Virus record (IMG/VR): IMGVR_UViG_3300048008_000051
Span: 1 to 37,876 of that record
Origin: a virus
DNA length: 37,876 nucleotides
Reading direction: 5' to 3' (one strand)
The translations under genes and the position numbers were made by a program. Below, piece after piece: positions 3,295 to 13,017 of the stretch. A model generated the notes under the pieces. It saw only the letters and a list, made by a program, of their open reading frames with translations. It had not been told where the DNA came from and did no database searches. Position 1 is the stretch's first letter. Every line of letters starts with the position of its first letter.

Positions 3295-3472
3295 ATAGAT
3301 CTCCCTCTGCTTTGAGTGCGTCAATGTGGCGTAGCTCTTCACGGTGGAAGTCAGCCATCAAGTACTCACCCTCCCACTCATAGTCATCTACTGCCTTGGA
3401 CACACGGTTATACTCCTCATTGATAGGTAGCAAGTGCTCTGCAAGGAATAGGTCTCGCTCTTCCTGGGTCAT
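3278..3472 (-). CDS. Hypothetical acidic protein, 64 aa
   Basis: The product begins MTQEERDLFLAEHLLPINEE and is predicted mostly helical and acidic, ending DLYVPRF. No family is recognised. Its ATG shares one base with the TAA of the upstream 91-residue gene (TAATG type junction). A helical, charged small protein of this kind is typical of early phage modulators, but nothing in the sequence points to a target. Confidence 0.65.
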   Translation of the reverse strand: MTQEERDLFLAEHLLPINEEYNRVSKAVDDYEWEGEYLMADFHREELRHIDALKAEGDLYVPRF

Positions 3473-3747
3473 TAGCTGTCTCCTTCATAGTAGTACCAAG
3501 CTGTACTATCGTCAGGTAATACATATGGTTTGTAGTGGTTAGGATTACCGCCCTCATTTACAGGAGGACGAAAGTTAAACATATTCTTTAATGCATAAGA
3601 CTTATCACGCAGGTCACTGAGTTGTGACATTCGTACATCCATCATCTCCATTGTGTCATCTATCATGCTGTCCATACAGTTGTAGACTTCAAGCAATATG
3701 AGTACTTCGTCACGGGTCAGTTCTGTTTTGATTGTCTTCTTGTTCAT
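3472..3747 (-). CDS. Hypothetical protein, 91 aa
   Basis: Residues 8-55 look like a long helix or coiled coil (LTRDEVLILLEVYNCMDSM followed by a Met- and Asp-rich stretch), and the C-terminus is Pro/Tyr-rich and probably extended (GNPNHYKPYVLPDD). No known motif is present. The gene overlaps its neighbours by 1 bp and 4 bp, in line with translational coupling through this small-gene run. Confidence 0.7.
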   Translation of the reverse strand: MNKKTIKTELTRDEVLILLEVYNCMDSMIDDTMEMMDVRMSQLSDLRDKSYALKNMFNFRPPVNEGGNPNHYKPYVLPDDSTAWYYYEGDS

Positions 3748-5166: not shown

Positions 5167-5446
5167 TGTCTTTACCTCCATCAATTACAATTAGCTTGGC
5201 CTTGGGTCGTTTGGTAGGCCGTAGTATGTCTAACCTATAAGCATAGAATGTCTCATAGTCAACCTCATCAAGTCTTAGTATCGGACGATCCGAGACTAGA
5301 TCGAACCAAGCCATAGGGTATGTGCTCTCAAGTATACCCAGCATGAGCTTGCCACTATACTCAGAGGTGGTGGCAGTAATCAAGTGCCACTCACCGTTCA
5401 CATTCTCGCATAGATAACGAGTGTCTGCATCTACTTCTGTCATCAT
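5156..5446 (-). CDS. Hypothetical protein, 96 aa
   Basis: The product begins MMTEVDADTRYLCENVNGEW and has a small alpha/beta look (GEWHLITATTSEYSGKLMLG, then FDLVSDRPILRL). The segment SDRP is encoded by a copy of the palindromic repeat at 5281-5293, so the repeat is accommodated inside a coding sequence here. The end is Lys/Asp-rich (IDGGKDNDN) and overlaps the next gene. Function unknown. Confidence 0.7.
   Translation of the reverse strand: MMTEVDADTRYLCENVNGEWHLITATTSEYSGKLMLGILESTYPMAWFDLVSDRPILRLDEVDYETFYAYRLDILRPTKRPKAKLIVIDGGKDNDN
5278..5297 (-). repeat. Palindromic repeat copy A (long-spacing type)
   Basis: The core TCGGACGATCCGA is at 5281-5293, inside the 96-residue gene. With its flank CTTAGTA it resembles copy E. 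It lies about 114 bp upstream of the start codon at 5166. Confidence 0.7.
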
Positions 5447-7814: not shown

Positions 7815-8351
7815 TTAGGCTGAGGCCTTGGCTGCGGCGTTGAAGGCCTTGCGGAATGCGGCGACGGTGATGCCAGCTTCACTCAGCTGCTGCATAACCG
7901 CTTGAGCCATTGCCTCAGGTGTCACTTGCTCAGGCTGTGCCTCTGCAGGCTTGGCCTTGCCTTTGGATGTGTTACCTGCAGCGCTTGCCTTCTTGACCCG
8001 TTTCCGAACCGCTGAAGCGCCGAGTGAATTAAGTTCACCGTTTTTGTTTAGCTTCGCTACCTTGTCCCAGTTAGAGGCAACGAACATGGCGTCATTACGA
8101 TCTTGCATAGACCGCTTACCTAAAGGTGTAGCTTTGATAGCAGCACCGTATTGCTTATCGCTTTTGTATACGCTGCGGAGTGTGAGCAGCCATTCGCCAA
8201 TGTCACGGGTTTGCAAGAGCACAAGCTCAGCTGTGTCATCACGCTTGTCGAACATGTGAGCTACATGGTCACAGGCTTGGCTGAATGTGTGGGTCTGACC
8301 GTCGAATGTGACCGTTGCGTCGATGTGTGATTTTGCGATTGCGTTTGTCAT
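7815..8351 (-). CDS. Head gene of the leftward region, putative DNA-binding or regulatory protein, 178 aa
   Basis: The start MTNAIAKSHIDATVTFDGQT at 8351 has AGGAA upstream; an ATG at 8396 is possible but lacks this. Residues 40-115 appear to be a compact helical domain (TRDIGEWLLTLRSVYKSDKQ, then LNSLGASAVRKRVKKA with an HTH-like look). A Lys/Ala/Pro linker leads to a C-terminal helix (EAMAQAVMQQLSEAGITVAA). The basic segments suggest DNA or RNA binding. It is the gene nearest the control region and has its own promoter candidate, palindrome copy and terminator, as expected of a regulator or an abundant early DNA-binding protein. No family recognised. Confidence 0.6.
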   Translation of the reverse strand: MTNAIAKSHIDATVTFDGQTHTFSQACDHVAHMFDKRDDTAELVLLQTRDIGEWLLTLRSVYKSDKQYGAAIKATPLGKRSMQDRNDAMFVASNWDKVAKLNKNGELNSLGASAVRKRVKKASAAGNTSKGKAKPAEAQPEQVTPEAMAQAVMQQLSEAGITVAAFRKAFNAAAKASA

Positions 8352-8398
8352 TTGGGTATTCCTTTCGGGTTGTGGCATGATTGCCGGTTGATGCATTC

Positions 8399-8427
8399 AA
8401 ATTGACCGATAACGCCGAGACTGTCAA
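8399..8427 (-). promoter_or_regulatory. Candidate leftward sigma70-type promoter
   Basis: Read leftward, a perfect TTGACA (8422-8427) is followed after 17 bases by CAATTT (8399-8404). The -35 is ideal but the -10 is weak (two to three matches), so an activator may be needed. It would start transcription about 40 bp before the 178-residue gene; palindrome copy E is just upstream. Confidence 0.45.
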
Positions 8428-8456
8428 ACGCTTTTTTTACCCCTTTAGGGGTAGAT

Positions 8457-8490
8457 CTTAGTATCGGACTGTCCGAGGGTAGGAATTAGG
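8457..8490 (-). repeat. Palindromic repeat copy E (long-spacing type)
   Basis: The core TCGGACTGTCCGA at 8464-8476 is followed by GGGTAGGAATTAG. It lies 112 bp upstream of the start at 8351 and about 37 bp upstream of the candidate leftward promoter. Confidence 0.8.
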
Positions 8491-8800
8491 GCAAAACGAA
8501 TCACTTTGACCGAGTGGAACGAATTAGCAACATTGCCTCGTGTGATGCGCCTGAGTGCCTGCATGATGTGCCTGCCTGGGTGTGATGCGTGAGTAGGTGT
8601 GCATCAGGCGTGATGGGGTGGGGGTGTGCTTGTGTGCAAGTGCTACAGGGGGGTGTGGGTATTACATGCATGAATGCCTGCATTGTGCACGTGTGCGTGT
8701 AAGTCCGTGTAAACATGGGAAAAAGCGCTGCGTGACATACTCAATAACTATAAAAAGCATTACATTCCAACGACATAGCCTTGCATGATGCACGCAAACG
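8490..8800. other. Non-coding GT-rich control region with possible G-quadruplex
   Basis: The top strand is rich in GTG and TGC words and contains short direct repeats (GTGTGATGCG twice near 8540 and 8580; TGCCTGCAT twice). G-runs at 8615-8618, 8620-8624, 8648-8653 and 8657-8659 could form a quadruplex whose long middle loop contains the hairpin CTTG-TGTG-CAAG. Frames here on either strand give repetitive Cys/His/Thr peptides and are not credible genes. A replication origin or regulatory role is possible but unproven. Confidence 0.45.
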
Positions 8801-8806
8801 CACCTA

Positions 8807-8843
8807 CCCCCGCCTGAGTAGGGGGGCGCATGGGCCACCCCCC
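8807..8843. promoter_or_regulatory. Mutually exclusive C-run/G-run/C-run hairpins
   Basis: CCCCC (8807-8811), GGGGGG (8821-8826) and CCCCCC (8838-8843) are spaced so the central G-run can pair with either C-run, not both. This is an attenuator-like or strand-switch arrangement. No U-tract follows, so a simple terminator is not supported. Confidence 0.45.
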
Positions 8844-8852
8844 ACCTATACG

Positions 8853-8864
8853 ATATACGTATAT
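8853..8864. repeat. 12-bp perfect palindrome ATATACGTATAT
   Basis: A perfect palindrome lies 9 bp after the C/G-run structure in the control region. It could be a protein-binding site; nothing more can be said. Confidence 0.4.
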
Positions 8865-8951
8865 GTACTCTGCAACACACGGGGATTTTGAAACGCCCTA
8901 TATGTACACCTACACGCACAACCTCTGTCGTATACCTCTCTAAAGAAAGAC

Positions 8952-8977
8952 GTTACATTGTAACACTAGTATAGTGT
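8952..8977. promoter_or_regulatory. Two adjacent perfect dyads
   Basis: GTTAC-ATT-GTAAC (8952-8964) is followed with a two-base overlap by ACACTA-GTA-TAGTGT (8963-8977). Both are perfect odd-length dyads of the size used by small HTH dimers. They lie about 55 bp before the first rightward promoter candidate. Confidence 0.45.
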
Positions 8978-9030
8978 GTGCTTATTGCAACACTTCTAAA
9001 CTATCTTACCTCGACTACAGATTTATGGGC

Positions 9031-9059
9031 TTGACAAGTACCCCCTTTTTATGTACAAC
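9031..9059 (+). promoter_or_regulatory. Rightward promoter candidate 1
   Basis: TTGACA (9031-9036), a 17-base spacer and TACAAC (9054-9059, four of six) form a reasonable sigma70-type promoter pointing at the late genes. The spacer contains C and T runs. Confidence 0.5.
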
Positions 9060-9077
9060 TGTGGGGGTAAGGGGGCT

Positions 9078-9230
9078 TAGTTAAACTATAAAGTAATAAA
9101 ACTTAGATATAGTATAACTATAATAGTTTGAACTTAAGAAAATAGCTTGACACAATAGTTAAACTATACTATCATTACTTAATAAGTAGTTTAAACTTAG
9201 ATATAGTTAGAACTACATAGTTATACTATA
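9078..9230 (+). repeat. Array of six TAGTT-NN-AACT dyads
   Basis: Copies at 9078-9090, 9124-9136, 9156-9168, 9187-9199, 9204-9216 and 9218-9230 follow TAGTT-NN-[AT]ACT-N-[AC]. The copies at 9078 and 9156 are identical (TAGTTAAACTATA). In addition AAACTTAGATATAGT occurs twice (9099-9113, 9193-9207). The array covers the rightward promoter and looks like an operator or iteron cluster. Confidence 0.72.
9147..9175 (+). promoter_or_regulatory. Main rightward (late) promoter
   Basis: TTGACA (9147-9152), a 17-base spacer and TATCAT (9170-9175, five of six) give a strong sigma70-type promoter. One dyad of the array (9156-9168) sits inside the spacer, so a bound protein would directly block or remodel it. 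Confidence 0.72.
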
Positions 9231-9278
9231 ACACATATAACTATTAACACTTGTATCGTAATAAAGTACTTGACACCC

Positions 9279-9539
9279 ATGCAAAAAAGAGTAAAACTAT
9301 ATGCATCAGAAGATGTATTAACTGAGTTCTATTTAGCTTTAGCTGATAATGACTCCCGTAGATTACGTCAAGTACACATTCCTAAGTCTGACGTATTCTA
9401 TGTCCGTACTGCTATTCATAACGATACAGGTGTGTGGTACACACTTGACCACGTAGAACGAGCGATGTACTTAGAGGGTCACTTAAGTCGGAATGAAGTG
9501 TTAGATCCAGATAGAGAGCGAGAGTATTGCCGTGGCTAA
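9279..9539 (+). CDS. First rightward gene, hypothetical protein, about 86 aa
   Basis: ATG 9279 gives MQKRVKLYASEDVLTEFYLA; an in-frame TTG at 9270 would add three residues. Neither has a clear Shine-Dalgarno. The middle part YVRTAIHNDTGVWYTLDHVE followed by RAMYLEGHL is a pattern I recall in marine phage genomes next to lysis genes, without a known function. It overlaps the following GTG start by 8 bp. A third TTGACA (9270-9275) overlaps the start and might be part of another promoter. Confidence 0.7.
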   Translation: MQKRVKLYASEDVLTEFYLALADNDSRRLRQVHIPKSDVFYVRTAIHNDTGVWYTLDHVERAMYLEGHLSRNEVLDPDREREYCRG

Positions 9540-12688: not shown

Positions 12689-12777
12689 CGGGTATTCCAA
12701 CATAGCAGTTCTAATTAGCACCATAATGTAGTATAACTGTAGTTGCCAATAAAGGCATAACACAGGAGACTACACTA

Positions 12778-13017
12778 ATGTACTTAACATACGACTACCC
12801 AAGCCAACTTAAAATCGCAGTAACTACCTCTATCAAACGTACCTTTAAAGCAGTAACTAAGTTCCTTGCCTCTATTGGTACTTCACTTGCAAAAGCACAG
12901 CAGATGAGAGCTGACTTCTGGTTACTTAACAATATGAGTGACCAACAACTAAAAGACATCGGTATTACCCGTGGTGAAATTAAACAACGGTTCTACGGTA
13001 CAGATAGTCAAACATAA
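12778..13017 (+). CDS. DUF1127 (YjiS-like) protein, 79 aa
   Basis: The C-terminal half contains FWLLNNMSDQQLKDIGITRG then EIKQRF, which fits the DUF1127 pattern L-x-x-M-[ST]-D-x-x-L-x-D-[IL]-G-[IL]-x-R-x-E-I, an arginine-rich-type small-protein family abundant in Alphaproteobacteria. The N-terminal 45 residues are helical and basic (SIKRTFKAVTKFLASIGTSL). Members are linked to stress, phosphate and RNA metabolism. GGAG precedes the start, and an 89-bp gap with a possible TATAAC -10 lies upstream. A host-derived regulator is likely. Confidence 0.82.
   Translation: MYLTYDYPSQLKIAVTTSIKRTFKAVTKFLASIGTSLAKAQQMRADFWLLNNMSDQQLKDIGITRGEIKQRFYGTDSQT

Follow-up and report, generated by a model that had tools for sequence, protein, structure and literature searches.

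Multi-operator regions of temperate phages, such as OR/OL of lambda and the early operators of Mu, hold several similar dyads together with tandem promoters, and the binding to them is probably cooperative. A comparable array of dyads lies in the DNA analysed here, a virus record of 37,876 bases (the window). I propose that a phage regulator acting in trans uses these dyads as its operators and, most likely, represses the late promoters through them, a reading that comparison with related sequences makes probable.

By gene content and order the window is of HMO-2011 type, a group of marine, roseophage-like phages with genomes of about 54 kb; the contig is incomplete. It has the first late gene, the integrase, the primase, ThyX and the late module that mark the group. 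ThyX, primase and a tyrosine integrase (2048-2980) belong to an early module that runs leftward, and the rightward late module has its close relatives in Roseobacter phages CRP-2, CRP-13 and others. Between the two modules is a non-coding gap, about 8397-9278, whose right part holds the dyad array (9078-9228), the 150 bp of lowest GC in the window (20% vs 45%). The same control region also contains the lowest-GC stretch of HMO-2011, CRP-4 and CRP-5. Repeats resembling TGCATG/GTGTGATGCG occur in the left part of the gap (8500-8720), which is G/T-rich. Neither "promoter" nor "intergenic" appears as a word in the paper on HMO-2011-type phages (PMC8528129), and a search of open-access papers for promoters, repressors, operators or inverted repeats of HMO-2011, roseophages and pelagiphages turned up no account of such an array. 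The features of the region are these:

7815-8396, minus strand: gp193, 193 aa, divergent first gene of the leftward module, a candidate ligand of the array
9031-9059, plus strand: P1, TTGACA-17-TACAAC, upstream of the array; consensus match only
9078-9088, no strand: dyad 1, TAGTTAAACTA, 11 bp, perfect
9099-9113, no strand: 15-bp direct repeat, copy 1, AAACTTAGATATAGT
9110-9120, no strand: dyad 2, TAGTATAACTA, 11 bp, 1 mismatch
9124-9135, no strand: dyad 3, TAGTTTGAACTT, 12 bp, 1 mismatch
9147-9175, plus strand: P2, TTGACA-17-TATCAT, 11 of 12 consensus positions, inside the array; consensus match only
9156-9166, no strand: dyad 4, TAGTTAAACTA, 11 bp, perfect, inside the P2 spacer
9176-9188, no strand: related palindrome TACTTAATAAGTA, with the half-site type of other lineages (ACTTAATAAGT)
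9187-9198, no strand: dyad 5, TAGTTTAAACTT, 12 bp, 1 mismatch
9193-9207, no strand: 15-bp direct repeat, copy 2, AAACTTAGATATAGT
9204-9215, no strand: dyad 6, TAGTTAGAACTA, 12 bp, perfect
9218-9228, no strand: dyad 7, TAGTTATACTA, 11 bp, 1 mismatch
9270-9297, plus strand: P3, TTGACA-16-TAAAAC, which overlaps the first late gene's start codon; consensus match only
9279-9539, plus strand: first rightward (late) gene, 86 aa from its ATG, present in all HMO-2011-type relatives examined

The seven dyads come in two forms, 11-bp TAGTT-N-AACTA and 12-bp TAGTT-NN-AACTA. The first-pass annotation had counted six copies of a single 13-bp form, TAGTT-NN-AACT. All six sites are there, with start-to-start steps of 46, 32, 31, 17 and 14, and the 15-bp direct repeat it reported does occur twice, but form and number had to be revised, dyad 2 having been overlooked. 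When all 1024 5-mer half-sites are scanned, TAGTT is the best, with 7 dyads, while in 1000 dinucleotide shuffles the best half-site never exceeds 5. Across the whole 37.9 kb, 300-bp windows with more than 5 dyads are found only at the array, and the next separate peak has 4. The array is real and its count is beyond chance. Arms of 5 bp around loops of 1-2 nt are too tight for RNA hairpins, and Rfam gave no match; the dyads would therefore act as DNA.

The three promoter-like sequences all point rightward, and several related dyads overlap or abut them. The claim that one dyad sits in the spacer of a TTGACA/TATCAT promoter holds: it is dyad 4, in the 17-bp spacer of P2. P2 is invariant among the contigs that share the array, but these were retrieved with the P2 pattern; in the independent loci L129, L131 and L151 TTGAC[AT] is kept and a dyad lies in the P2 spacer. 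The spacer dyad has degenerated in two groups, those of L144 and L155. P1 has a counterpart at the same place in relatives (TTGACA-17-TATAAC/TACAAC/CATAAC), and CRP-1, CRP-2, CRP-207, CRP-345, CRP-603 and HMO-2011 have the TTGACA of P3 either at the start codon or immediately upstream of it. The -35 of P3 is strong and its -10 weak.

The centres of the dyads are 32, 14.5, 31.5, 31.5, 17 and 13.5 bp apart, near multiples of 15.5. They fit a grid of about 15.5 bp in which some slots are empty; for the window alone p = 0.003 when the best period anywhere between 12.5 and 40 is taken. Combined with L131 and L151, none of 500 simulations did as well, though the main arrays of these lineages are related by descent and so the tests are not fully independent. 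Since 15.5 bp is 1.5 helical turns, alternate sites lie on the same face of the DNA. The shrinking spacing described earlier gives way to this grid, having arisen because the site at 9110 was missed and starts were measured instead of centres. Related arrays gain and lose sites, so that site positions differ, while the grid is roughly kept; the two indels seen, about 33 bp inserted and about 46 bp deleted, each come near a whole number of grid steps. Compared with its sister contigs the window itself has lost about 46 bp, including one dyad, the deletion running between TAGTT repeats with its junction at dyad 6 (9204).

A motif search in relatives, named beforehand as the check that could overturn the array, found the dyads kept and less diverged than their surroundings. 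The array is nearly unchanged in contigs retrieved with the P2 pattern, a retrieval not independent of the array. Among the loci retrieved by the 86-aa gene alone, thirteen (L129, L130, L131, L144, L145, L150, L151, L154, L155, L158, L162, L164 and L182) have TAGTT as the top of the 1024 half-sites, with 5-10 dyads. In close contigs dyad positions have diverged by 2.3%, the DNA between dyads by 5.4% and the flank by 12.8%; against L129/L130 the values are 9.6% for dyad positions and 23.9% for the DNA between them. Elsewhere in the window, a DUF1127 protein (Pfam PF06568) is encoded at 12778-13017, with TAGTATAACTG at 12729, and L208-L210 have one TAGTTATACTA just upstream of the DUF1127 gene, a site that may be only a -10 element.

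Other lineages have arrays in the same position with a different half-site. For TACTT there are 11 loci in which it tops or nearly tops the scan; they have 4-7 dyads each, most of them more than the shuffles give, and in CRP-4 it makes 4 dyads in the top window of that genome. TACTA leads in CRP-9 and L029 and is near the top in CRP-13. CACTT (HMO-2011, CRP-1 and CRP-345, 2-3 dyads) and AACAT/ATGTT (the CRP-2 group) were suggested by eye, and their counts, only 2-4, are within the shuffle range where shuffles were run. Strain FZCC0023 was the isolation host of CRP-1, CRP-2, CRP-4, CRP-9 and CRP-13 alike, yet their control regions differ. A host-encoded ligand is disfavoured by such differences in dyad among phages of one host strain, and the ligand is therefore probably encoded by the phage. 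The argument is strongest for CRP-4 (TACTT) against CRP-9 (TACTA).

A further element occurs upstream of the first late gene in L083, L105, L106, L133, L152, L160 and L173: a CT-rich stretch (TCTCCTCCTCCC, anti-Shine-Dalgarno-like) flanked by the arms of a long inverted repeat. To the eye the arms seem to co-vary, as in CRP-2 (ACGTGCTGC/GCAGCACGT) and L160 (ACGTGTGTAG/CTACACACGT). As a conserved structured leader the CRP-2-type inverted repeat gave no pairs in RNAalifold and no match in Rfam, and neither it nor the CT-rich stretch is present in the window's gap.

Then there are second arrays at other promoters. In CRP-13 (3426-3533) and CRP-9 (about 5188-5270) a smaller TACTA array lies in an early gap after a promoter-like site. 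L211/L212 have a second array, in the genome's own dyad form, before tRNA-Arg and the integrase. In the L030 and L022 contigs TACTTAAAGTA and TACTTTAAGTA come after a promoter-like site and before tRNA-Arg, behind which an integrase-like frame begins; one copy in L022 has a mismatch. L043, L044 and L007 have copies of the 10-bp TACTTAAGTA before tRNA-Arg, a form that L043 and L044 also use in their main arrays. When one genome has such sites at two of its promoters, a regulator acting in trans is indicated. The 37.9 kb of the incomplete window showed no second array, and TAGTT records showed none clearly, so for the window's own regulator this argument is carried over from relatives. The tRNA-Arg(TCT) gene in the early region of L030, L043, L044 and L007, in L030 directly before the integrase-like frame, is possibly an attP-related copy of a host tRNA. 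Integrase arm sites of an attP were considered for the dyads and rejected: the window's integrase (2048-2980) is 6 kb from the array, and the CRP-9 and CRP-13 records annotate no integrase while the arrays are present.

As for the protein, the window proteins examined gave no significant match to a DNA-binding regulator. The candidate gp193 accompanies TAGTT arrays in many loci but could be placed in no family of Pfam or PHROG. Structure comparison with its model (pLDDT 71) gave nothing convincing: the best match has Z 5.9, and the DNA-binding domain of a ParB scores Z 4.8 (rmsd 3.9, 94 aligned). It is not required, the arrays of L119 and L125 being intact without it, and was rejected as the ligand. 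In these two loci a 208-aa protein resembling CRP-13 gp01 has replaced the first leftward gene beside a nearly identical array. The 86-aa first late gene is the only array-adjacent gene in all relatives, but it was rejected as an autoregulator: its model (pLDDT 80) resembles nothing convincing in the PDB, and the gene has no DNA-binding signature. A prophage search gave 6 hits, all MAG contigs of unlikely hosts and probably misbinned phage; the MAGs that contain these contigs (L198-L203) bear the names Blastopirellula, Bacteroidetes, Neomarinimicrobiota and Flavobacteriales.

It is unlikely that the region is instead a replication origin, with the dyads as iteron-like sites for a phage initiator beside an AT-rich unwinding region and P1 providing activating transcription. 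Repeated sites and an AT-rich island at the boundary of the replication and late modules do recall ori-lambda and the iteron plasmids; P1 reads into that island, which is the window's GC minimum as it is in three relatives, and cumulative GC skew turns near the array. The skew turn is confounded, however, by genes diverging at the same point. Unlike iterons, which are asymmetric direct repeats, the sites are two-fold symmetric; one lies within the P2 spacer, and no initiator gene was recognised. The first-pass annotation had offered a repressor or activator on the one hand and iterons on the other, and the recurrence of the dyads at a second promoter in other lineages (CRP-9, CRP-13, L030, L043, L044, L007) favours a regulator of transcription.

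That the regulator is an activator, bound upstream of P3 and turning on late transcription from it, perhaps with simultaneous repression of P1 and P2, seems quite improbable. The array is upstream of P3, whose strong -35 and weak -10 would suit activation, and many TAGTT loci retain a final dyad of TAGTTATACTA type at some 40-52 bp upstream of the P3 -35, counted by eye. But no helical phase is apparent in the varying distance to P3, and the first dyad of TACTT relatives comes directly after the P1 -10, the position of a repressor. Chance or AT-rich mutation bias without function is hardly credible: AT-rich palindromes are expected in AT-rich DNA and the CACTT and AACAT/ATGTT arrays are weak, but the shuffles, the genome-wide uniqueness, the grid and the dyad-specific conservation contradict it, and the array was recovered again in loci retrieved by the neighbouring gene.

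Under the preferred reading, operators of a late repressor, dimers of a phage-encoded DNA-binding protein acting in trans would bind the 11-12-bp TAGTT-n-AACTA dyads about every 1.5 helical turns, every second dimer on the same face of the DNA. They would fill an AT-rich stretch of about 160 bp from P1 to P3 and occupy the spacer between the -35 and -10 of P2. The rightward promoters for lysis, packaging and structural genes would most likely be repressed in this way until needed, P1 and P2 by the dimers on the grid, with P3 or later events perhaps taking over. A protein of this kind would have a further promoter under its control in TACTT and TACTA relatives; in TACTT phages it is that of tRNA-Arg and integrase. 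What was first noticed as a putative protein-binding array over a promoter into lysis and structural genes stands on these terms. More tentatively, the protein may belong to a DNA-binding family without a known signature, which forms a filament of dimers every 1.5 turns at late promoters and, in some lineages, integrase promoters, and whose half-site radiates (TAGTT, TACTT, TACTA, CACTT) between phages that share a host, leading to separate immunity-like groups.

The array provides a sequence-defined handle on the late-gene switch of these phages. With bait DNA in hand for each of the three half-site classes that are well supported (TAGTT, TACTT and TACTA), and with a single cultured host strain having yielded several relatives, operator specificity and cross-regulation are directly testable.

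The closest described systems remain lambda OR/OL and the early operators of Mu, in which similar dyads likewise recur across tandem promoters and divergent control DNA, with one of the dyads inside a promoter; cooperativity is probable for the array as well. The array differs from them in that no repressor gene was recognised, in its seven to eleven sites on a 15.5-bp grid, in its position at late rather than early genes, and in a half-site that varies between related phages of one host.
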